Shown one piece after another: positions 2,486 through 22,910 of a stretch of DNA of 43,515 nt. A program made the position numbers and the translations under genes. The first letter of the stretch is position 1, and every line of letters begins with the position of its first letter. The stretch comes from Nitrospirae bacterium CG2_30_70_394 (GTDB taxonomy: Bacteria > CG2-30-53-67 > CG2-30-70-394), in the NCBI GenBank assembly GCA_001873295.1, contig MNYW01000068.1, positions 18,288 through 61,802 on the forward strand. Reading direction: 5' to 3'. The notes under the pieces are model-generated. The model did not search any database, was not told the DNA's origin, and was given only the letters and a program-made list of their open reading frames with translations.

Positions 2486-4207
2486 TCAGCAAACGCCGCA
2501 CTTGTGGCAGCCGACCAGCCCCGGCGGACACGGTGAGCTCGCCTTGCCGAGGCTCGCCCGGTGCGCCTCGCGCGCCAGGTACGGGCTGACCACACCGGCC
2601 TCGACGTGGTCCCACGGCAGAGGCGCACCCACCTCGAGCGGCGCGTGGAGGTCGATCCCGGTCGCCGCCAGCCAGGCGGGCAGGACCTTGCGCCAGCGAC
2701 CGCCCGCGGCGGCCGCCGCCTCCAGCAGATCCGCCGCCCGCCGGTCGCCGCGCGCCAGGATCGCCTCCACCGCCACGGTAGTCTCGCCCTCGCAATCCAG
2801 CTCGACGTTGCCAAGGCGCGCCAGGCGGCCACGCAGGGTGGCGACCTTCGCCGCCACCTGGGCAAACGGCTCCAGGGGGGCCCACTGGAAGGGGGTGTGG
2901 GGCTTGGGGATGAGCTGGTTGAGCGACACGGTGATCGCCCCGGCGTGGCCGGCCCGTTGCCAGTGGGGCAGAAACCGTTCGCGCACCGCCGCTACCAGGG
3001 CGGCCATCGCCTCCACGTCCGCGTCGCGCTCGCCCGGCAGGCCGACCATCAAGTAGAGCTTCACCCGGTCGATGCCGGCGTTGGCGAGGGTGTCGGCGGC
3101 GGCGAGGATCTGGCCCTCGTCGAACCCCTTGCTCACCACCCGCCGCAGCCACTCGCTGCCGCCCTCGGGGGCGAGGGTGAGCGACCGGTTGCCGGAGCGC
3201 ACCAGCACGTCGACCACCTCCGGGGTGAGATGGTCGATGCGGATCGACGACGGCGAGACCGTGGCGCCGCGCGCCACCAGCCCCTCTACCAGGGCGAGGA
3301 AGTCGGGGTGGTCGCCGGGCGACGGCGCCACCAGGCCGACGCGCCGGGTGAACGGCAGCGCCGCCTCCGCCTCGGCGAGCAGCCGCGCCACCGGGTGGTG
3401 GCGGGGCGGGTTGTCGGCATAGCCGGCGGTGCAGAAGCGGCACTGGCGCGGGCAGCCGCGCGAAGTCTCCAAGAGGAACATGTCGCCAAAGACCGAGTCC
3501 GCGGGGAGGTAGCGCGAGTGGGTCGGGTACGGGGTGAGATCGCGGAGCCACTGGCGCGCCACCCGCGCGGGGAAGGCGGGGCGCGGGGTGAGACCGGCGA
3601 AGCGGCCGGCGCGGGTCTCACCGATGTAACCGGCGGGGAGGTAGAGGCCGGGGAGGTCGGCGAGCTCGCGGCCGATCACCTCACGGTCAGCGGTGGTGGC
3701 GTGGAGGGCGCGCAACCGCGCCACGACCTCCGGCAGCGCCGCCTCCGCCTCGCCGAGGAAGAGGGCATCGAAGAAGGGGGCGAGGGGCTCGGGGTTGAGG
3801 GAGACCCCGGTGGAGCCGGCGAGGAGCAGCGGCCAGGCGGGCCGATCGGCGGCGCGCACCGCCAGCCCGGCGGCGCGAACCATCTCGACGATGTGCAGGT
3901 AGTCCGCCTCGAAGGGGGCGGAGAAGCAGATCAGGTCGAAGCGCGACAACGGCCGGCCGCTCTCCACCGACCGCGGCTCCACCGCCGGGCGCGGCCGGCC
4001 GCCACCATCCGCGGGGAGGAAGAGGCGCTCGCAGCGGCAGCCGGGGAGCGCCGCGAGCAGCCCGGCAACCACCTGCAAGCCGAGGTTCGCCATCCCCACC
4101 CGGTAGGTGTTGGGGAAGCACAGGCCGATGGCAAAGTGGCCCTCCCCCGGCGCCGCGCCAAGGAGGCGCTCCGCCGCGCCACCGGGGCGCGCGCCACGCC
4201 GGTTCAC
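2486..4207 (-). CDS. B12-binding-like radical SAM protein (TIGR03960-like)
   Basis: A large radical SAM protein of about 573 residues from the chosen GTG. The N-terminal half resembles a B12-binding-like Rossmann region (IGLCFPNTYRVGMANLG, LICFSAPFEADYLHI, LLAGSTGVSLNPEPLAPF). The central half is a radical SAM barrel with LLETSRGCPRQCRFC, the CxxxCxxC that ligates the SAM-binding 4Fe-4S cluster. Further barrel motifs are APEGGSEWLRRVVSKG, KLYLMVGLPGE and LIPKPHTPFQW. The extreme C-terminus is Cys-rich (CPPGLVGCHKCGVC), suggesting an extra metal or cluster site. The track's ATG at 4573 would add a low-complexity leader running through intergenic repeats, so I reject it; the ATG at 4363 is another option. 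The family is widespread in anaerobes and deltaproteobacteria-like lineages, and its substrate is not established. Confidence 0.85.
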   Translation of the reverse strand: MNRRGARPGGAAERLLGAAPGEGHFAIGLCFPNTYRVGMANLGLQVVAGLLAALPGCRCERLFLPADGGGRPRPAVEPRSVESGRPLSRFDLICFSAPFEADYLHIVEMVRAAGLAVRAADRPAWPLLLAGSTGVSLNPEPLAPFFDALFLGEAEAALPEVVARLRALHATTADREVIGRELADLPGLYLPAGYIGETRAGRFAGLTPRPAFPARVARQWLRDLTPYPTHSRYLPADSVFGDMFLLETSRGCPRQCRFCTAGYADNPPRHHPVARLLAEAEAALPFTRRVGLVAPSPGDHPDFLALVEGLVARGATVSPSSIRIDHLTPEVVDVLVRSGNRSLTLAPEGGSEWLRRVVSKGFDEGQILAAADTLANAGIDRVKLYLMVGLPGERDADVEAMAALVAAVRERFLPHWQRAGHAGAITVSLNQLIPKPHTPFQWAPLEPFAQVAAKVATLRGRLARLGNVELDCEGETTVAVEAILARGDRRAADLLEAAAAAGGRWRKVLPAWLAATGIDLHAPLEVGAPLPWDHVEAGVVSPYLAREAHRASLGKASSPCPPGLVGCHKCGVC

Positions 4208-4659
4208 CGCGCCTCGCTTTCGCCGCGCCGCCGCCAAGGCCACCGCGGCGCGCGCGCCTGCGCGGATTCGCGCATCTGCGGCCTTGGGTGCGCCCTTTCG
4301 CGCGGCGGCTGAAGGGCAGGCCGCCGGGACGGGCGCCGCCCAGGCTGCACCAAGCCGTTGCATCCGGCCGCCCGCCGTGGGGGATAAGCCATGGTTAGAC
4401 AGTAGACAGTGGAGAGCAGGGAGTAGACAGGGGGGGGATTTTGGCCCCGGCAGCGGGACACGCGGCGCGCTGGGACGGGTGGCCCACCGCTCGCCTCTCT
4501 CCGGCGGGTGGGGCGGGGCCGCATGATCGCCACCGGTGAGCCGGCGTGGGGTTGAGCCAGCGCCGGATGGCATGTCAGTTGCTTAGTTTTTAGGTGGGGA
4601 CAGGGGACGAGTTCCCCGCGCGTGGTAAGGGACGGTGCAGGAGCCCGGGAGACAACACC
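4208..4659. other. Divergent intergenic region with short repeats
   Basis: Spacer between the radical SAM gene and the AAA+ regulator. No convincing gene. It holds a GC-rich part with a GCGCGAATC-like tract (about 4260-4275, minus-strand reading) that faintly resembles the dispersed repeat found at 11.7, 16.8 and 19.8 kb. It also holds an AGTAGACAGT-type tract (4395-4430) and a GTGGGGACAGGGGAC tract (about 4594-4608) followed by GTTCCCC. The latter two look like dispersed non-coding repeats. The divergent promoters must be here but I cannot assign them. Confidence 0.6.
4395..4430. repeat. AGTAGACAGT-type short intergenic repeat
   Basis: TTAGACAGTAGACAGTGG is followed by GAGCAGGGAGTAGACAGG, so GTAGACAG occurs twice with related spacing. 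The tract is AT-richer than its surroundings and non-coding. It resembles the GTAGAAA tract directly after the regulator gene at 6015-6035. Function unknown. Confidence 0.6.
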
Positions 4660-9235: not shown

Positions 9236-10102
9236 ATGGTCGACCCCGCCCCGCCCGATCCCATCGTCCTGCCGGTGCAGCAGGGGGAGGAGCTCCACCT
9301 GTTCATCGTCTCCGACGCCACCGGCCGCACTGCCGAGGAGGTCCTCAACGCGGCGCTGTTTCAGTTTCAGACCACCCACGTGGTCCTGCACCGTTTCCCG
9401 CGCGTCCTCTCCGCCCCCCTGGTGGAGCGAATCATCGCCCAGGCCTCCGAGCTCAGGGCGGTGATTGTCTGCACGGTGGTGGAGCAGGAGCTTGCCGATC
9501 TCTTGCACCGGCGGGCGCAACAGGCGGGGGTGGCGATGGTGGACATCATGGGGCCGATCATCGAGGCGATCGGCCGGGTGGTGCACCGTGGCCCGCTGGG
9601 GGCGCCGCGCACTCCGGACATGCGGGCGAGCGCGGTGAGCCTGCGCGCCGACGCGATCTCGTTCACCGTCAGCCACGACGACGGCCGGCGCATCGAGGAG
9701 GTGGGCGAGGCGGACGTGGTCCTCCTCGGGGTGTCGCGCGCCGGCAAGACCCCGACCTCGGTCTACCTCGCCACCCACGGGTTGCGGGTGGCGAACATCC
9801 CCCTGATCCCGGGGGTGCGCCTGCCGGAGGCGTTGCGCCAGGTGGAGCCGCAACGGGTCTTCGTCCTCAGCCGCGCCCCGGCCACCCTCGCCCATCTGCG
9901 GCTGGCACGCACCGCGGTGGCGGAGAGCGGCCGCTACGCCGATCTCACCACGATTCGCGAGGAGGTGCGCGCCGCCCGCGAGGAGGTGGAGCGGTTCGGC
10001 GCGGGCTGGCAGAGCATCGACGTCACCACCCTCTCCATCGAGGAGACCGCCACCCAGATCGAGCAGCTCCTTGGGCCGGTGGGCCGCCGGCCGCGGGAGT
10101 GA
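9236..10102 (+). CDS. ppsR: PEP synthetase regulatory protein (bifunctional kinase/pyrophosphorylase)
   Basis: A 288-residue DUF299 protein that switches phosphoenolpyruvate synthase (or pyruvate phosphate dikinase) off by ADP-dependent phosphorylation and on by Pi-dependent dephosphorylation. Family hallmarks are LHLFIVSDATGRTAEEV at the N-terminus, the ISFTVSHDDGR segment and the P-loop GVSRAGKTPTSVYLA, followed by ANIPLIPGV. I use the ATG at 9236, only about 20 residues before the conserved N-terminus; no clear ribosome-binding site precedes it. The regulated enzyme is not encoded in the window. ptsP, another PEP-handling gene, lies 10 kb away. The specific target (PpsA or PPDK) cannot be told from sequence inspection. 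Confidence 0.93.
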   Translation: MVDPAPPDPIVLPVQQGEELHLFIVSDATGRTAEEVLNAALFQFQTTHVVLHRFPRVLSAPLVERIIAQASELRAVIVCTVVEQELADLLHRRAQQAGVAMVDIMGPIIEAIGRVVHRGPLGAPRTPDMRASAVSLRADAISFTVSHDDGRRIEEVGEADVVLLGVSRAGKTPTSVYLATHGLRVANIPLIPGVRLPEALRQVEPQRVFVLSRAPATLAHLRLARTAVAESGRYADLTTIREEVRAAREEVERFGAGWQSIDVTTLSIEETATQIEQLLGPVGRRPRE

Positions 10103-10157
10103 GGGCGGTGTGGCGCGGCCGGGTGCGTCCGGTCTCGTCGCCTCACGGCGAGTGCAA

Positions 10158-10279
10158 AGCCTGAAGGAGCGCGATGGAGATCGTCACGCGGAAAAGCGGC
10201 CCCGCTCCGCGAGGAGCGCCATACGCTGCCGTCGATGGACAAGGTCCAACAGCCTCTGAAAGAGCGCGATGGAGATCGT
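10158..10279. repeat. Direct repeat duplicating a start region
   Basis: AGCCTGAAGGAGCGCGATGG at 10158 and AGCCTCTGAAAGAGCGCGAT at 10251 start two copies of about 28 bp that both continue through ATGGAGATCGT. They differ by one substitution and a 2-nt indel. The second copy is the ribosome-binding site and first codons of the flavoenzyme gene. The first opens a 35-codon reading frame (10174-10281, MEIVTRKSGP...) that runs into the real start in another frame. It could be a translated leader or the scar of a local duplication. Confidence 0.8.
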
Positions 10280-11618
10280 AGTCATTGGGGGTGATGCGGC
10301 GGGGATGAGCGGCGCAAGCCAGATCCGACGGCTCCAGGGGGGCTGGCCGATCACCGTGGTGGAGCGCTCGCCCTTGACCTCGTACGCGGCGTGCGCCGTT
10401 CCCTATTTTTTCGCCGGCGACCTCGCCAGCGCCGGCGACCTGGGGGTGGTCACCCCGGCCGCCTTTCGCGAGCACAGCCGCATCGACGTGCGCACCCACA
10501 CTGAGGTGTTGGCGATCGACCCTCGCGCGCGACGGGTGGCGGTACGCCGGGACGACGGTGGCGAGGAGGCGATCGCCTATGACCGGCTGCTCCTCGCCAC
10601 CGGCGCCCTGCCGGTCCGGCCCACCTGGGAGGGGGTGGAGCTGGACGGGGTCTTTTTCCTCCGCTCCCTCGCCGACTCCCTCGCCCTCGCCAACCGGTTG
10701 CACACCGGCGCCTCCCGCGCGGTGGTGGTGGGCGGCGGCCACGTCGGGCTGGAGTTGGCCGAGGCGTTGGCACGCCGTGGCCTGGCGGTCACCGTGGTGG
10801 AACGCGCGGCCACGCTGTGGGGTGGCGGCGATCCGGAGCTGAGCCGGCTGGCGGTGGACGAGCTCGCCGCCCACCGCGTGGCGGTGCGCCTCAAGAGCGC
10901 GGTGACTGGCCTGGTGGGCCAGGGTGGCCAGGTCGTGGCGGTGGCCACCGAGGGCGGGGAGATCGCCTGCGACCTCTGCCTCATCGCCCTCGGGGTGCGG
11001 CCCAACGTCGCCCTCGCGGCGGCGGCGGGGATCGGTCTCGGGGAGAGCGGCGCAATCGCCGTGGACGAGGGCCAGCGCACGGATCGGCCCGGGGTGTGGG
11101 CGGCGGGCGATTGTTGCGAGGTCTTGCACCGGGTCACCGGCCGGCCCTGCTACCTCCCTCTGGCCCTCGCCGCCCACCGCGCCGGCCGGGTCGCCGGCAC
11201 CACCATGGCCGATGGCGAGGCGCGCTTTCCCGGGGTGGTGGGGAGCCTGGCGTTCAAGTGCTTCGACCTCGCCATCGCCCGCACCGGCCTCACCCCGGCG
11301 GCGGCGACAGCGGCGGGGTATGCGCCGCGCGGCGTTACCGTGGAGGCGGAGTCGCACGCCCCCGCCTCCACGGGCCACGTGCCGATCACCGTGACCCTCT
11401 GGTTCGACGCCACCACCCGGCGGCTGCTCGGTGGGCGCCTCGCCGGCCGCGAGCCCTCGGTGGCGAAGCGGTGCGACCTCTTGGCAGTGGCGATCACCAC
11501 CGGCATGACCGTAGGTGAGGTTGCCGACCTCGACCTCACCTACGCCCCGCCGTTTGGCCCGGTCTGGGACCCGCTCCTCCAGGCCGCCGCCCGCGCCGCG
11601 CGGGAGTGCGGGAACTAG
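10269..11618 (+). CDS. CoA-disulfide reductase / NADH oxidase-like flavoenzyme
   Basis: A 449-residue FAD-dependent pyridine nucleotide-disulfide oxidoreductase of the single-cysteine (CoADR/Nox/Npsr) group. The FAD Rossmann motif is VVIGGDAAGMSGASQIRR. The redox-active cysteine sits in SYAACAVPYF near residue 45, matching the SFANCxLPY motif of CoA-disulfide reductases. The NAD(P)H motif is VVVGGGHVGLELAEAL, and the second FAD contact is GVWAAGDCCEV. The C-terminal dimerisation domain ends with DLTYAPPFGPVWDPLLQAA, where family members carry the conserved tyrosines. There is no fused rhodanese domain. Possible reactions are NADPH-dependent reduction of CoA disulfide, CoA persulfide or polysulfide, or oxygen. 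The neighbouring tusA/dsrE2 operon makes persulfide chemistry attractive, but this is inference. Confidence 0.87.
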   Translation: MEIVVIGGDAAGMSGASQIRRLQGGWPITVVERSPLTSYAACAVPYFFAGDLASAGDLGVVTPAAFREHSRIDVRTHTEVLAIDPRARRVAVRRDDGGEEAIAYDRLLLATGALPVRPTWEGVELDGVFFLRSLADSLALANRLHTGASRAVVVGGGHVGLELAEALARRGLAVTVVERAATLWGGGDPELSRLAVDELAAHRVAVRLKSAVTGLVGQGGQVVAVATEGGEIACDLCLIALGVRPNVALAAAAGIGLGESGAIAVDEGQRTDRPGVWAAGDCCEVLHRVTGRPCYLPLALAAHRAGRVAGTTMADGEARFPGVVGSLAFKCFDLAIARTGLTPAAATAAGYAPRGVTVEAESHAPASTGHVPITVTLWFDATTRRLLGGRLAGREPSVAKRCDLLAVAITTGMTVGEVADLDLTYAPPFGPVWDPLLQAAARAARECGN

Positions 11619-12773: not shown

Positions 12774-13277
12774 TCAGGTGAAGAGGTTGATCTGCGCCTC
12801 GCTGGCAATGTCGAGATAGCTGCTCGCCCCGACGAACTCGATGCCGTCGATGAACTCGCTCTTGTCGAAGCCGAACAGGTCGACGGTCATCTGACACGCC
12901 ATCATCTTGACCCCGGCCTCCATGCACAGGCTGCGGAGCTCGGTCACGGAGGCGACGCCGACGTTGGAGATCGTCTTTTTCATCAGGGTGGTGGCGAGGG
13001 CCTCGTAGCCCGGGACCAGGGACTGGACGAAGTTCGGGATGTTCCAGGTGATGTTGCGGAACCACTTCGGCCCGATCGGCATCTTCATGGGCATCGCCGG
13101 GTTGCCCAGGGGGCTGACCTGCGCGGTGATCTCCTTCTTCAACAGGGTGAGGCCGTAGAAGGTGAAGAAGATGGTGACGTCAAAATCGAGCGCCGCGGCG
13201 GTGGAGCCGAGGATGAAGGGCGGGTAGGCCCAGTCGAGGGTGCCCTTCGTGGCGATGATGGTCATCTTGGTGCTCAT
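12774..13277 (-). CDS. dsrE2: DsrE2-type DsrE/DsrF-like sulfur-transfer protein
   Basis: A 167-residue DsrE/DsrF-superfamily protein of the DsrE2 subtype. The sequence opens with MTIIATKGTLDWAYPPFILG and AALDFDVTIFFTFYGLTLL, typical of this subtype. The sulfur-carrying cysteine lies in GVKMMACQMTVDLFG, with another Cys in ELRSLCMEAG. DsrE2 proteins are usually membrane-associated persulfide carriers that exchange sulfur with TusA. It is last in a minus-strand operon tetR-tusA-dsrE2, 48 nt after tusA, with AAGGA before its ATG. It converges on ubiX. The exact sulfur donor and acceptor are not evident because no hdr, sox or dsrAB genes are present in the window. Confidence 0.88.
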   Translation of the reverse strand: MSTKMTIIATKGTLDWAYPPFILGSTAAALDFDVTIFFTFYGLTLLKKEITAQVSPLGNPAMPMKMPIGPKWFRNITWNIPNFVQSLVPGYEALATTLMKKTISNVGVASVTELRSLCMEAGVKMMACQMTVDLFGFDKSEFIDGIEFVGASSYLDIASEAQINLFT

Positions 13278-13589: not shown

Positions 13590-14207
13590 TCAGGCGGCCA
13601 TCTCCTGAGGGGTGGGATGCAGGGTGATGAGGAGGGCGTCGAGGAGTTCGCGGCAGTTGTGGAAGACGGTGATCTCCTTGCGCACCTTGGTGATCAGGGT
13701 GGCGCCCTCGAAGGTGGAGAGGATGAACTGGGCGAGCTGCTCGCTGTCCACCTCCCGCCGCACTTCGTGGCGCTCCTTCGCCGCCTCCACGAGGCGGATG
13801 ATCTGCCCCTCGAAGTAGCGGAAGACCGTGTCCACGTGGGCGGCGATACCGGGGTGGTTGTTGCCCATCTCCAGGGCGAGGTTGCCGAACGGGCAGCCGC
13901 CCTGGAACTGGTTGTCCGTGTGGTACTGCTCCATCGCCCCGAAGAAGGCGTGGATCTGCTCACGCAGGGTCGTCTGGGTGGTGGTGGTGGCGGCGAAGAG
14001 GCGGCTGAACTCGGCGGCGAAGGACTCGACCACCGCGTAGCCGATCTCATCCTTGGTGCGGAAGTGGAAGTAGAGGTTGCCCTTCTTCACCGCCGCCCGC
14101 TGGAGGATCGCGTCGACGCTGGTGTGGTAGTAGCCGTGCAAGTGAAACAGCTCCGCGGCCGCCTGCACGATGCGCTCCCGGGTCTCGTTGCCGCGTGGCG
14201 TGGTCAT
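13590..14207 (-). CDS. TetR/AcrR-family repressor of the tusA-dsrE2 operon
   Basis: A 205-residue TetR-type regulator. Residues about 7-53 are the helix-turn-helix: RERIVQAAAELFHLHGYYHTSV, ILQRAAVKKGNLYFHFRTKDEI. The C-terminal domain contains a Cys in FQGGCPFGNLALEMG, a segment typical of the NemR/AcrR-like C-terminal family that responds to electrophiles or redox signals. The true ATG is at 14207; the track's longer frame fuses it with an antisense run from transketolase. A near-perfect palindrome lies about 40 nt upstream of the start, so the protein most likely represses its own operon and hence tusA and dsrE2. The inducer is unknown; a reactive sulfur species sensed through the cysteine is an attractive guess. 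Confidence 0.9.
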   Translation of the reverse strand: MTTPRGNETRERIVQAAAELFHLHGYYHTSVDAILQRAAVKKGNLYFHFRTKDEIGYAVVESFAAEFSRLFAATTTTQTTLREQIHAFFGAMEQYHTDNQFQGGCPFGNLALEMGNNHPGIAAHVDTVFRYFEGQIIRLVEAAKERHEVRREVDSEQLAQFILSTFEGATLITKVRKEITVFHNCRELLDALLITLHPTPQEMAA

Positions 14208-14246
14208 GGGGGAACCGTGGGTCTGCTCTCGGGGGACAACTAAATA

Positions 14247-14305: not shown

Positions 14306-16255
14306 TTACCCCTCTTGGCGCACCGCCCGGCGGACCGTGGCGGCGATCCCTGCCGCGTCCAGCCCCATGGCGGCGTAGAGCTCCGCCGGCACCCCCGAGG
14401 AGCCGTAGGTGGTGACCCCGAGGCGAATCAGGCGGCAGCCGAGGCCGTGGTCGGCCAGGCAGTTGGCGACGCTGGATCCCAGGCCGGTGGCCGGGGTGTG
14501 GTCCTCGACGGTGACGATCAGGCCGGTGGCCGCGGCCTGTTGGATTGCCGCCACGTCCACGTCGCGGGCACACGCCATGTTGAGGACCCGGACGTGGATG
14601 GCCTCGGCGGCGAGCCGCTCGTGGGCGGCCACCGCCGCCCCGACTACCGCCCCGAGGGCGATGATCGTTGCGTCGTCGCCCGCCCGCAAAAGGTCCGCCT
14701 TGCCGTACTCGAAGCGGTAGTCCCCAGCGAAGAAGGGGGTGCCGTCCGCGCGGGCAATGGGCGCCATCTTCGACCGCCCCATGCCGAGGAAGCAGTTGCC
14801 CGGCTGGGTCGCCATCCAGCGGGTCGCCCGGTCGGTCTGGTTGGGGTCGGCGGGGATCACCGTGCGAAAGCCGTGCAGGGAGTGGAGCAGGCCGAGGTAG
14901 TCGATGCACTGGTGGGTCTTGCCGTCCTCGCCCACGTCGAGCCCGATGTGGGTGCACACCAGCTTCAGATTGCCGCCATTGATGTCGGTGAGCCGGTGCT
15001 GGTTGTAGGTCTCGCACACCCCGAAGACGCCGAAGTCGGCGAAGAAGGTGAGGACGCCGCAGGCGGAGAGGGCGCCGGCCATCGCCGCGGTGTGGTGCTC
15101 TTGGATCCCCGCCTCGAAGAACTGGGCGGGGAGGCGCTGGTGGAAGCCATCGGTCTTCACCGACCCCTCCAGGTCGCAGTCGAAGACCGCCATCGGGACG
15201 GTGTCGCCGTTACCCGCTGCCAGGTCGGCGAGGGCGTTGCCCCAGGCGGAGCGGTTGTCGGTCTTGTCGGTGGGACCGTAGGTGCGCGGCGTCCCCGCCT
15301 CCACCTTCAAAGCCACCCCCGGCGGCTCGACGCCGTGATAGCGGAGCGGCTCCGCGACCCGCCGCTGGCGTAGGGACTCGACGGTGAGGTCGAGGCCGGC
15401 GGCGCGGAAGGTCGCGTCCGCCACCGCGTCGGCCACCGGCTGGCCGTGGTACCTCGCCTGGTTCTCGATCGCCGGGATGCCGTGGCCCATCACCGTGTGC
15501 GCAAGGATGCAGGTGGGCCGCTCCTTCTGGATCGCCGCCTGGTGGAGCGCCGCGTACAGGGCAGCGAAGTCGTGGCCGTCCGCCTCAACCACCTCCCAGC
15601 CGTCGGCGGCGTAGTCGGCGCCGATCTCCTGCGGCATCACCTCGCGCGTGGCGCCACCGATTTGCAGGCCGTTGAGGTCGACCAGGGCAGTGAGCTCGGC
15701 GAGGCCGTACTTCACCGCGAAGCGGCGCGCCTCGCAGATCTGCCCCTTCTGCTGCTCGCCGTCCCCCATAGCGACATAGACCCGACCGCCGTCGCCGGTG
15801 AGGCGGCCGCCAAGGGTGAAGCCGCAGCCCGCGGAGAGCCCCTGGCCGAGGTTGCCGGTGCCCCATTCGACCCCCGTCACCTTGCGCTCGATGTGGCCCT
15901 CGAAGGGCGAGCCGGTCTGGCGGAAGTGGAGCTGCGCCTCCTCGATGGGGAAGAAGCCAAGGCGGCCGAGGACCGCGTAGACCCCCGGCGAGGTGTGGCC
16001 GTGGGAGACGACGATCCGGTCGCGGGTGGGCTCCGTGGGGGTCGCCGGATCGACGTTCGCCAGCCCCCAGAGGAGCAGGTAGAGGTGGAGCGAGGAGAGG
16101 GAGCCGCCCGGGTGGCCGGAGCGGGCGCCGGAGGTCATCGCGACGATGTCCGCCCGGCACAGGGGGAGCAGCGACTCAAGGAAACGCCGCTCCGCCGCGC
16201 CCAGGGTGGGGGCGGCAAAACCGCGACATGGGCTGTCGAGTAAGGGGTGCGCCAA
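14306..16255 (-). CDS. tkt: Transketolase
   Basis: A 649-residue, full-length single-chain transketolase moving two-carbon ketol units between pentose-phosphate sugars with thiamine pyrophosphate. N-terminal marks are SGARSGHPGGSLSS, VVSHGHTSPGVYAVLGRLG, GNLGQGLSAGCG and the TPP/Mg motif AMGDGEQQKGQICEA...DLNGLQIGG. The middle pyrimidine-binding domain has FFEAGIQEHHTAAMAGALSA, where the catalytic Glu lies, and the C-terminal domain has VEDHTPATGLGSSVA. The TTG start is supported by TGGAG 7 nt upstream on the minus strand. Lengths and motifs point to the class with a more archaeal/thermophile-like sequence than E. coli TktA. It is followed, same strand, by tetR after 98 nt containing the TetR operator, so it likely forms a separate transcript. 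Confidence 0.93.
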   Translation of the reverse strand: MAHPLLDSPCRGFAAPTLGAAERRFLESLLPLCRADIVAMTSGARSGHPGGSLSSLHLYLLLWGLANVDPATPTEPTRDRIVVSHGHTSPGVYAVLGRLGFFPIEEAQLHFRQTGSPFEGHIERKVTGVEWGTGNLGQGLSAGCGFTLGGRLTGDGGRVYVAMGDGEQQKGQICEARRFAVKYGLAELTALVDLNGLQIGGATREVMPQEIGADYAADGWEVVEADGHDFAALYAALHQAAIQKERPTCILAHTVMGHGIPAIENQARYHGQPVADAVADATFRAAGLDLTVESLRQRRVAEPLRYHGVEPPGVALKVEAGTPRTYGPTDKTDNRSAWGNALADLAAGNGDTVPMAVFDCDLEGSVKTDGFHQRLPAQFFEAGIQEHHTAAMAGALSACGVLTFFADFGVFGVCETYNQHRLTDINGGNLKLVCTHIGLDVGEDGKTHQCIDYLGLLHSLHGFRTVIPADPNQTDRATRWMATQPGNCFLGMGRSKMAPIARADGTPFFAGDYRFEYGKADLLRAGDDATIIALGAVVGAAVAAHERLAAEAIHVRVLNMACARDVDVAAIQQAAATGLIVTVEDHTPATGLGSSVANCLADHGLGCRLIRLGVTTYGSSGVPAELYAAMGLDAAGIAATVRRAVRQEG

Positions 16256-16711: not shown

Positions 16712-16801
16712 CTCCGTCGCCCCGCGGGTGAGGGGGCCTTCTTATCGGAGACAAGGGGAGCATCCGATGCGGCTCCGTCGCCCCGCGGGTGAGGGGGCCT
16801 T
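16712..16801. repeat. Two identical 29-bp direct repeats, 61-bp period
   Basis: Both copies begin CTCCGTCGCCCCGCGGGTGA and continue to GGGGGCCTT without a mismatch (16712-16740, 16773-16801). The 32-bp interval contains its own inverted repeat ATCGGA...TCCGAT. The dimensions equal a type I-E CRISPR unit. However, there are only two copies, the interval is palindromic, and no cas genes are seen, so a REP/BIME-like element is more likely. Confidence 0.8.
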
Positions 16802-17026: not shown

Positions 17027-18541
17027 CTACGCGCACAAGGCGAGGATCTTCCCCACCGCCACGTGGTCCTGGACCGCCTGCACGATCCGCACGATCGCCG
17101 TTTCGCGCTGCTGGTGTGGGTCGGGGGCGTCGACGGGCGGCGCGCCGGCGTGGGCACGCAGGCGGCGGAGAAAACAGCGGCGGAAGGCGACATCATCGAA
17201 CAGGCCGTGGATGTAGCTCCCCCACACCTTGCCGTCGTGGGAGATGGCGCCATCGGGCCGGTCGATGAGCTCGCGATCGCGGCGTACGATGGTGGCGAAG
17301 GCCTGCACCTCCTCCTCCAGGAGGGTCCGGCCAAGGTGGTGCTCGTAGCCACGCACGCTCTTGCCGCACAGCTCCTCGGTGTGGTCGAGGCAGAGCGCCT
17401 CCACCTCGTGGCTCTCGCGGGTGTGGCCCAGGAGGCTGGCGATGGGCAGCAGGTCGAGCCCCTCCACCTCGCCGAGGCTGGACTCGCGCCCCATCGGGTC
17501 GAGGACCACCTTGCCGAGCATCTGCAGGCCGCCGCCGATCCCCACCACCACCCCGCCGGCGGCGCGAAAGGCGCGGATGTGCCGGCCGAGGCCGGACTGG
17601 TGGAGGTAGGTGAGGTCCTCGAGGGTGTTGGCGGAGCCGGGAATGATCAGGCAATGGACGGTGGCCAGGGGGGTCTCCGGCCCTACCGCCACCAGCTCCA
17701 CCGCCGGCTCAGCCGCGAGCGGCGCCGCGTCATCGTCGCTGCCCGCGTGCGGCAAATCGACGACGCCGATGCGCAGGCCGAGGGCGGGCCCCTCCGCCGG
17801 CCGCGCCGTCTCCACCACCACCCGCCCCTCGTGGGGCAAGGCAAGGTCGCGCAGCTCCGGCACCAGACCGAAGACCTCTACCGCGCAGCGCGCCTCGACG
17901 TGGGCGGCAAGGGTGGCGCCGTCGGTGCGGTTGCCCTGGTAGCGGTTGATCAGCAACCCCTTGACCCGCGCCCGCTGCGGCTCGGGGAGGAGGGCGAGGG
18001 TGCCGTACAGGGCGGCGAAGACCCCACCCTTGGCGGCGCCACCCACCAGGATCACCGGCGCGTCGGCGATCTCCGCCACCCCGGCGTTGGCGAGCAAGAC
18101 GGCGCGGATCTCCAGGTCGGTGGGTGAGCCCGATCCTTCGATCACCACCACCTCGTGCTCGCGGGCGAGGAAGGCGTAGCTCTCCGCCACCGCCTGTTCC
18201 AGGCGCGGCCGCAGGCGGCGCAGCTCTTCCAGGGTGACCACGCCGTGGCGCTCCCCCTGGATGAACAGCTCCACCCGGTGGCCCTCCACCGGCTTGAGGA
18301 GGAGCGGGTTCATGTGGGTGTTCGGGTAGACCCCGCACGCCTGTGCCTGGACCGCCTGCGACCAGCCAATCTCGCTGCCGGACTGGGTGATGAACGGGTT
18401 GAGCGTCCAGTTCTGCGCCTTGAATGGCGCCACCCGCCTGCCTTGGTCGCGCAGGATCCGACAAAAGGCGGTGGCCAGGATGCTCTTCCCCACGTTCGAG
18501 GCGGTCCCCTGAAACATCAGGGCGTGGGAGGTCGTGGCCAT
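17027..18541 (-). CDS. CobQ/CbiP-like protein lacking catalytic residues
   Basis: A 504-residue protein that aligns end to end with cobyric acid synthase, which amidates adenosylcobyrinate diamide. Architecture is intact: P-loop MFQGTASNVGKS, APFKAQN, MNPLLLKP, the synthetase core to about residue 235, then a GATase-like domain with GYEHHLG and GSYIHGLFDD. Key signatures are changed. The glutaminase nucleophile motif GICGG is GIGGG. DIDRGGVFA is GGAAKGGVFA. SPAEINL is SPTDLEI. PGSKNT is PGSANT. QNMALN is QNWTLN. The frame is otherwise clean and full-length, so this looks like a selected but non-canonical paralogue rather than a fresh pseudogene. No other cobalamin gene and no B12 riboswitch is nearby. 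The ATG at 18541 is chosen because the family starts there. Confidence 0.82.
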   Translation of the reverse strand: MATTSHALMFQGTASNVGKSILATAFCRILRDQGRRVAPFKAQNWTLNPFITQSGSEIGWSQAVQAQACGVYPNTHMNPLLLKPVEGHRVELFIQGERHGVVTLEELRRLRPRLEQAVAESYAFLAREHEVVVIEGSGSPTDLEIRAVLLANAGVAEIADAPVILVGGAAKGGVFAALYGTLALLPEPQRARVKGLLINRYQGNRTDGATLAAHVEARCAVEVFGLVPELRDLALPHEGRVVVETARPAEGPALGLRIGVVDLPHAGSDDDAAPLAAEPAVELVAVGPETPLATVHCLIIPGSANTLEDLTYLHQSGLGRHIRAFRAAGGVVVGIGGGLQMLGKVVLDPMGRESSLGEVEGLDLLPIASLLGHTRESHEVEALCLDHTEELCGKSVRGYEHHLGRTLLEEEVQAFATIVRRDRELIDRPDGAISHDGKVWGSYIHGLFDDVAFRRCFLRRLRAHAGAPPVDAPDPHQQRETAIVRIVQAVQDHVAVGKILALCA

Positions 18542-22309: not shown

Positions 22310-22910
22310 GGCGATGTCCGGGGAACGCGGGGCGCGCCATCCTACCACCGGCCGCGCCCCGCCCGTGTGCCCATCGCCGCCGCCCGCGTTCCACCCGCGG
22401 CCGGGGCGCCAGGCGGCGGTGGGTCGTGGTGATCGGCGGCGGTGGGTCGTGGTGATCGGTGGCGGTGGGTCGTGGTGATCGGCGGCGGTGGGTCGTGGTG
22501 ATCGGCGGCGGTGGGTCGTGGTGATCGGCGGCGGTGGGTCGTGGTGATCGGCGCGCGGTCCCCGCCCCTTCCGTGGGGGGCCGGCGCGCGGAGGGGTAGC
22601 CCGCCGCGGCGCCGGCGCACGCCACCGCGGGTGGTTCGCCCCGGGGGCGCGGAAGGGCCGAGGAACCGGTCGGACCTTGGCGCGCAAGCGCGCCGCCCGA
22701 TCGCGCCGCCCGGATCGATCGCCCCCGGACGCTACGGCGGGCCACCCGCCGCGCGCGGCTTTCGGTCGCCAGAAAGCCCGGCCGCGCCGCGCGCCGCGCC
22801 GCGCCGCCCGGGGTGGACCACCACGCCGGCCGGTGCGGGAGGCAAGTGGCTGATTCCGCCCGCCGGCGTTAGGTTGGACGAGTCATCTCGTGCGCAGGAG
22901 GGAACCACTC
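22310..22910. other. 601-bp intergenic region upstream of ptsP and the ferritin-like gene
   Basis: Divergent spacer. It contains the six-unit 23-bp tandem repeat and then a GC-only low-complexity stretch with GCGCCGCGC runs at about 22780-22800. A GGTGGACCACCACGCCGGCCG segment near 22813 slightly resembles the tail of the dispersed repeat. The same-frame extension of ptsP through the repeats would give Pro/Thr/His-rich sequence and is probably not translated. Confidence 0.6.
22419..22551. repeat. Six-unit 23-bp tandem repeat
   Basis: Unit GTGGGTCGTGGTGATCGGCG plus GCG, six times head to tail at 22419, 22442, 22465, 22488, 22511 and 22534 (the last cut after 18 bp). Unit 2 differs by one C-to-T change. 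Each unit has one GATC. Because 23 is not a multiple of three, all three frames give the same 23-residue protein repeat in shadow ORFs. It lies about 110 bp upstream of the ptsP start. Confidence 0.95.

Follow-up and report, generated by a model that had tools for sequence, protein, structure and literature searches.

Cobyric acid synthase (CobQ, CbiP) and dethiobiotin synthetase (BioD) are understood to phosphorylate a carboxylate with ATP, in the case of dethiobiotin synthetase on a carbamate. Amidases of B12 synthesis have been re-used for other cofactors: DsrN and CfbB, both homologues of CbiA, use glutamine to amidate siroheme and an F430 precursor, respectively (PMC10504309). Vertebrate CPS I, a synthetase that uses free ammonia, has kept an inactive glutaminase domain after the loss of its Cys (PMC4655335). 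GatD no longer hydrolyses glutamine when any one of three residues is changed (C94A, H189A or R128A), and the counterpart of R128 in most CobQs is a lysine (PMC5871853). Our search of the literature for a glutaminase-dead CobQ found no description, most subscription papers lying outside its coverage.

The stretch of DNA analysed here (the window, 43,515 nucleotides) contains the only copy in its genome of a gene that we refer to as cobQ-like. It opens with an ATG at 18541 and runs on the minus strand, with no internal stop, to a stop codon at 17027; its product of 504 amino acids has a CbiA/AAA_26 ATP domain and a GATase_3 domain in Pfam (Table 1). The protein passes the cut-offs of two curated models, with an equivalog-level score of 379 bits against TIGR00313 (cut-off 310) and a full-length match of 443 bits to the CobQ/CbiP model PRK00784 (cut-off 273), which agrees with an earlier reading of this DNA from its sequence only, where it was called an intact CobQ/CbiP-like gene aligning over its whole length. 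Models of the CbiA/CfbB type, a set without DsrN, gave 31–54 bits (cut-offs of 254 or more), and the GatD model only 22 bits (cut-off 400), the GATase domain being fused to a DTBS-like synthetase domain and not stand-alone. Judged by these scores, the protein is a member of the CobQ lineage.

Comparison with the described systems brings out both likenesses and differences. With CobQ/CbiP, the protein shares full-length homology, the two-domain layout, the ATP-site residues and the glutaminase His, but its nucleophile Cys is a Gly, at least 10 other invariant residues are changed, and no B12 synthesis genes lie nearby or were found in the genome. DsrN and CfbB provide a precedent for the re-use of a B12 amidase with another cofactor, and DsrN occurs in the same genomes; however, these enzymes descend from CbiA, and the Cys motif is intact in the DsrN copies found here, whereas our protein derives from CobQ and lacks the Cys. 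The retention of a glutaminase domain that has lost its nucleophile recalls CPS I, although this is an unrelated ATP-grasp synthetase with a known product, and has Ser where the CobQ-like protein has Gly. Among solved structures, GatD comes nearest to the C-terminal domain in sequence, but GatD is active, and it forms a subunit of its own that works with a Mur ligase-like partner.

Table 1. Features of the cobQ-like locus, with positions in the window and residue numbers of the CobQ-like protein.
Feature	Position	Strand	Basis
dsrE2 sulfur carrier gene, conserved neighbour	12774..13277	-	domain/profile match, synteny
TetR-family regulator gene, conserved neighbour	13620..14237	-	domain match, synteny
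Transketolase gene, next downstream of cobQ-like; order kept in sister species	14306..16255	-	profile match, synteny
cobQ-like, CobQ-family protein of 504 aa; DTBS-like ATP domain (about 1-240) and CobQ-type GATase domain (257-450)	17027..18541	-	ORF, domain and profile matches; fold model
His445 (YxHG), former glutaminase base, retained	17207..17209	-	alignment
Residues 329-410, 82 consecutive residues identical in both species; dN/dS 0.028 for block 329-411	17312..17557	-	pairwise comparison
Nucleophile elbow GIGGG, residues 334-338; Gly336 (GGC) in place of the catalytic Cys, in both species	17528..17542	-	alignment
PGSANT (301-306); K304 replaced by A in both species	17624..17641	-	alignment
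GGAAKGG (167-173); GDASKGG in sister species, canonical xDIDRGG	18023..18043	-	alignment
EGSGSPTDLEIRAVL (135-149); canonical EGAGSPAEINLxxxD; E135 kept; E142D, N144E and D149L (Q in sister species) at invariant positions	18095..18139	-	alignment
QNWTLN (43-48); canonical QNM[AS][LN]N; M45 invariant in 24/24, W in both species	18398..18415	-	alignment
P-loop GTASNVGKS, residues 12-20, retained	18482..18508	-	alignment

We compared the window genome (G000), a draft of 2.65 Mb in 182 contigs with an estimated completeness of 94%, with that of the only other species of the genus in our comparison (G001), a draft metagenome assembly with an estimated completeness of 100%. The sister species contains the gene on contig JAJRSX010000161, from isolate Dive96_bin1.162, whose name matches a study of hydrothermal vents in the Southwest Indian Ridge (PMC9769843). 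Both genomes show the same gene order, cobQ-like, transketolase, tetR and dsrE2, and the two products are 87% identical, that of the sister species having the motifs GIGGG, QNWTLN, SPTDIET, GDASKGG and PGSAST. A peptide-pattern scan of one genome per species in 84,980 species, which detects close relatives only, retrieved the sister species and, otherwise, four CobQs with the ordinary Cys motif. Likewise, viral contigs, plasmids and phages yielded only distant homologues, with the Cys present in all those read. The gene is carried by two species, so that its conservation rests on a single pair.

The five motif changes listed in the sequence-only reading (GIGGG, GGAAKGG, SPTDLEI at residues 139-145, PGSANT and QNWTLN) are all present in the DNA. 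Cys336Gly and nearly all the other substitutions also occur in the separate assembly of the sister species, so they are neither unique to this sequence nor sequencing errors. We evaluated conservation against a set of 24 other CobQ sequences that spans several phyla of bacteria and includes an archaeon, and in which 97 columns are conserved in at least 90% of the sequences. The window protein departs at 23 of these columns and the sister copy at 18, against 0–9 for the other CobQs, with the exception of a long-branch protein from Thermus (21 columns). Changes common to both species at columns invariant in 24/24 are M45W, Q91E, A137S, E142D, N144E, L145I/T, D149L/Q, R202Q, D239G, C336G and K375R; both species also have K304A, in a column with 23 K and one R. 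Position D149 corresponds, by our own count, to what we take to be Asp146 of Salmonella CbiP, a position that presumably affects the order of amidation. Loss of the initial D of DIDRGG is confined to the window species.

Both species keep 74 of the 97 conserved columns, including the P-loop, K41, E135, N199 and His445, and the earlier claim that nearly all catalytic signatures had been lost is therefore too strong, although the glutaminase Cys and much of the CobQ-specific signature are indeed gone. Within this signature, residues of SPAEINL...D, DIDRGG, FRGD, EDS and PGSK are not retained (for instance E142D, N144E, D149L/Q, R202Q, D239G and K304A). From the distribution of changed and kept columns in the alignment, we infer that CobQ-specific and glutaminase residues bear the losses, and that the ATP site is spared.

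In an alignment to BioD proteins of this phylum (hhalign probability 98), the P-loop falls on the BioD P-loop, K41 on Lys39, E135 on Glu117 and N199 on Asn177. BioD, whose ATP domain is homologous to that of the CobQ-like protein, needs no glutamine. Recruitment as a dethiobiotin synthetase, suggested by a CobQ profile that picked up BioD in six genomes of family f2 and in neither G000 nor G001, was rejected, as TIGR00347 detects a normal bioD in each of these (144 bits at G000:C7 and 146 bits at G001:C96); the same model barely scores the CobQ-like protein, with only 10.8 bits for the copy of G001.

In the glutaminase site, the Cys is replaced by Gly, His445 and the elbow glycines are kept, and the invariant Lys375 is an Arg, which places a positive residue near the position of GatD Arg128, an equivalence that is approximate. 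Since GatD C94A is inactive, Cys336Gly indicates that the glutaminase step is almost certainly dead; glutamine binding is possible, given that His445 is kept and Lys375 is replaced by Arg. The predicted fold keeps the two-domain synthetase-GATase arrangement (mean pLDDT 78, pTM 0.58), in a shallow model built on 6 sequences whose pocket loops 139-148 and 232-253 are of low confidence. Its best matches among solved structures are GatD, HisH and CTP synthase, and the solved relatives of the protein that we found are all of the GATase domain.

The pair of cobQ-like genes has a dS of 0.37 and a dN/dS of 0.22. For the same two species, the values are 0.27 for the transketolase gene, 0.49 for tetR, 0.21 for dsrE2 and 0.30 for dsrN, which places cobQ-like within or below the range of its neighbours (0.21–0.49), and two pairs of canonical cobQ genes gave 0.17–0.21, close to our value. 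Purifying selection is strongest around the dead nucleophile (dN/dS 0.03), and selection is thus not relaxed. The run of identical residues shown in Table 1 starts at the dead nucleophile elbow and ends shortly after the GYEHHLG motif. It is longer than expected by chance (permutation p 0.00035), and constraint is concentrated on this block (Fisher p 0.0001); the block was picked after the run had been seen, a choice for which the permutation of the longest run allows. In five pairs of canonical CobQs, conservation of the same block does not exceed that of the remaining sequence and, in one of them, it is significantly lower. Within the protein, constraint is highest in the dead glutaminase pocket, which makes this a clean example of a glutamine amidotransferase with a dead pocket under stronger constraint than its remaining sequence. 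In the tree, the pair sits on a stem of 2.07 changes per site, the longest branch, with tips of only 0.04–0.10, a pattern of much change followed by strong constraint.

To place the gene in its metabolic context, we compared eight genomes of the phylum; statements of absence are based on profile searches of the drafts. These searches found no second canonical cobQ, a point raised in the sequence-only reading, and no CbiC, CbiB or CbiA in the window or sister genome, and CbiZ was absent from all eight. In the sister family, genera g3 and g4 contain CbiC, CbiB, CobS and CobT together with an ordinary CobQ and a CbiA-type gene. All of CbiC, CbiB, CobS, CobT and CobQ are missing from genus g2, which contains a DsrN-like gene. 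The only other long GATase_3 protein in the window genus is also DsrN-like, a name that, as with that of the SirC-like gene beside it, rests on motifs and neighbours and not on a profile scan. Both copies keep the glutaminase motif AECGG, and that of G001 lies within a dsr cluster. This cluster (G001:C162, L087) also contains two similar proteins of 417 and 414 amino acids, at 9626-10876 and 14439-15680, that look like duplicated sulfite reductase subunits; one of them is matched by the start of G000:C42 (L086).

Each of the two genomes has one B12 riboswitch, located upstream of a TonB receptor gene (btuB-type uptake) and not at cobQ-like; indeed, the window contains neither cobalamin genes adjacent to cobQ-like nor a B12 riboswitch, as had been noted earlier. 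In the sister species, the riboswitch leads a B12 uptake/salvage cluster (L063; G001:C15, 7594-13797) with genes for the TonB receptor, a lipoprotein, a BtuF-like protein, CobT and CobS, which is cut by the end of the contig; for its equivalent in the window genome (L135), we found the riboswitch and the TonB receptor, and neither CobT nor CobS. The genus probably needs B12, because it has a MetH-sized protein with a B12-binding domain. With no CbiC, CbiB or CbiA, and with the riboswitch at an uptake gene, it appears to import B12 and to be able neither to make the substrate of CobQ nor to use its product. A match to the CobQ family is easily taken as evidence of B12 synthesis, and here a protein passes both curated cut-offs in genomes from which the other synthesis genes tested are absent. 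Separately, a radical SAM protein encoded at 2486-4573 (minus strand) resembles the B12-binding family TIGR03960, with 304 bits (cut-off 462), in this genome without B12 synthesis genes.

The absence of B12 synthesis genes, the ordinary CobQ of the sister family and the purifying selection suggest that the protein probably does not work as a cobyric acid synthase and is not debris either. Together, the shared substitutions, the purifying selection and the lack of a canonical cobQ and of B12 synthesis genes give good support to selection for a function distinct from the synthesis of cobyric acid, and to this extent the new role put forward in the sequence-only reading, be it that of a scaffold, an ammonia-dependent ligase or a regulator, survives, the substitutions being shared and selection not being relaxed. 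As to what this function might be, we tentatively favour, at a little short of even chances, a cobyric acid synthase repurposed as an ATP-using carboxylate ligase with a new acceptor and a non-hydrolysing C-terminal domain. The N-terminal domain would still phosphorylate a carboxylate with ATP, but the acceptor would differ, and the nitrogen of glutamine would be replaced by free ammonia or another nucleophile. The C-terminal domain would have been kept, in a non-hydrolysing form, as an interface, a tunnel or a ligand pocket, possibly one that binds glutamine, and would control or shape the ligase. Against a ligase, the retained ATP residues could serve binding without catalysis, and the neighbours transketolase, TetR and DsrE2 form no coherent pathway; the single pair of species, the unconserved spacer towards the transketolase gene and the shallow fold model also weigh against this reading. 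In broader terms, and with some reserve, the protein may represent a new CobQ-derived class in a lineage without B12 synthesis, either an ATP-dependent ligase or a glutamine/ATP sensor, in which the inactivated pocket is the most conserved part. If the new role is true, the re-use of B12 amidases, already known from the CbiA enzymes DsrN and CfbB, would gain an example that stems from CobQ and has changed in a different way.

The main rival, which we consider rather unlikely, is a non-catalytic sensor or scaffold that binds ATP, and perhaps glutamine, converts neither, and reports the nitrogen or energy state to a partner. In its favour, the pocket has lost the nucleophile but still has its elbow glycines, His445 and, near the position of GatD Arg128, a positive residue, constraint peaks in the pocket block, and a tetR gene lies within the conserved neighbourhood; however, no partner was found, and some CobQ-specific residues have given way to other charged residues fixed in both species (E142D and N144E), which looks like re-tooling and not like loss.

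It is less probable still that the protein amidates another tetrapyrrole, siroheme or a related cofactor, with ammonia. To our knowledge, no cofactor would need further amidation here; both genomes already have a DsrN with the AECGG motif, and genus g2 has a DsrN-like gene without cobQ. These points weigh against the presence of SirC and DsrN in both species, the dsr sulfur-metabolism cluster of G001, the position of cobQ-like three genes from dsrE2, and the similar recruitment of CbiA homologues (PMC10504309).

A cobyric acid synthase running on ammonia, or an enzyme that repairs damaged imported corrinoids by amidating them again, would fit a genus that probably needs and imports B12, and glutaminase-dead synthetases that use ammonia do exist, as in human CPS1, with Cys changed to Ser (PMC4655335). 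Nevertheless, we regard it as very improbable: with no CbiA, CbiB, CbiC or CbiZ found, the normal substrate would not be made and cobyric acid would be unusable, the CobQ-specific residues are changed, and the gene is not under the B12 riboswitch. A decaying leftover of the lost B12 pathway, for which the loss of that pathway and the long stem would speak, is even harder to credit with a gene intact in both species, a dN/dS of 0.22 and 82 identical residues in a row around the dead site. Finally, although both genomes are fragmented drafts and that of the sister species is a metagenome assembly, an assembly or sequencing artefact has a negligible probability, with the same substitutions in a separate assembly at 14–15% DNA divergence and in a conserved gene order.

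The sequence-only reading also described the gene as alone between large repeat-rich spacers, which holds only in part, because its gene order is conserved in the sister species and the flanking spacers contain few repeats: a 29-nt repeat in two copies, a 14-nt repeat in two copies and imperfect inverted repeats. We found no promoter-like site near the gene, and the spacer towards the transketolase gene is not conserved between the two species. The two identical copies of the 29-nt repeat lie in this spacer, at 16712-16740 and 16773-16801, 61 nt apart (a gap of 32 nt); the repeat is absent from the rest of the window, and its 16-base core from the sister locus. The geometry of the pair resembles a minimal CRISPR array, although the repeat occurs only twice and we saw no cas gene in the window. 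Elsewhere in the window, a tandem array at 22412-22559, on the 5' side of a ptsP-like gene and within its longest ORF, comprises 6.4 copies of a 23-bp unit with 97% matches.
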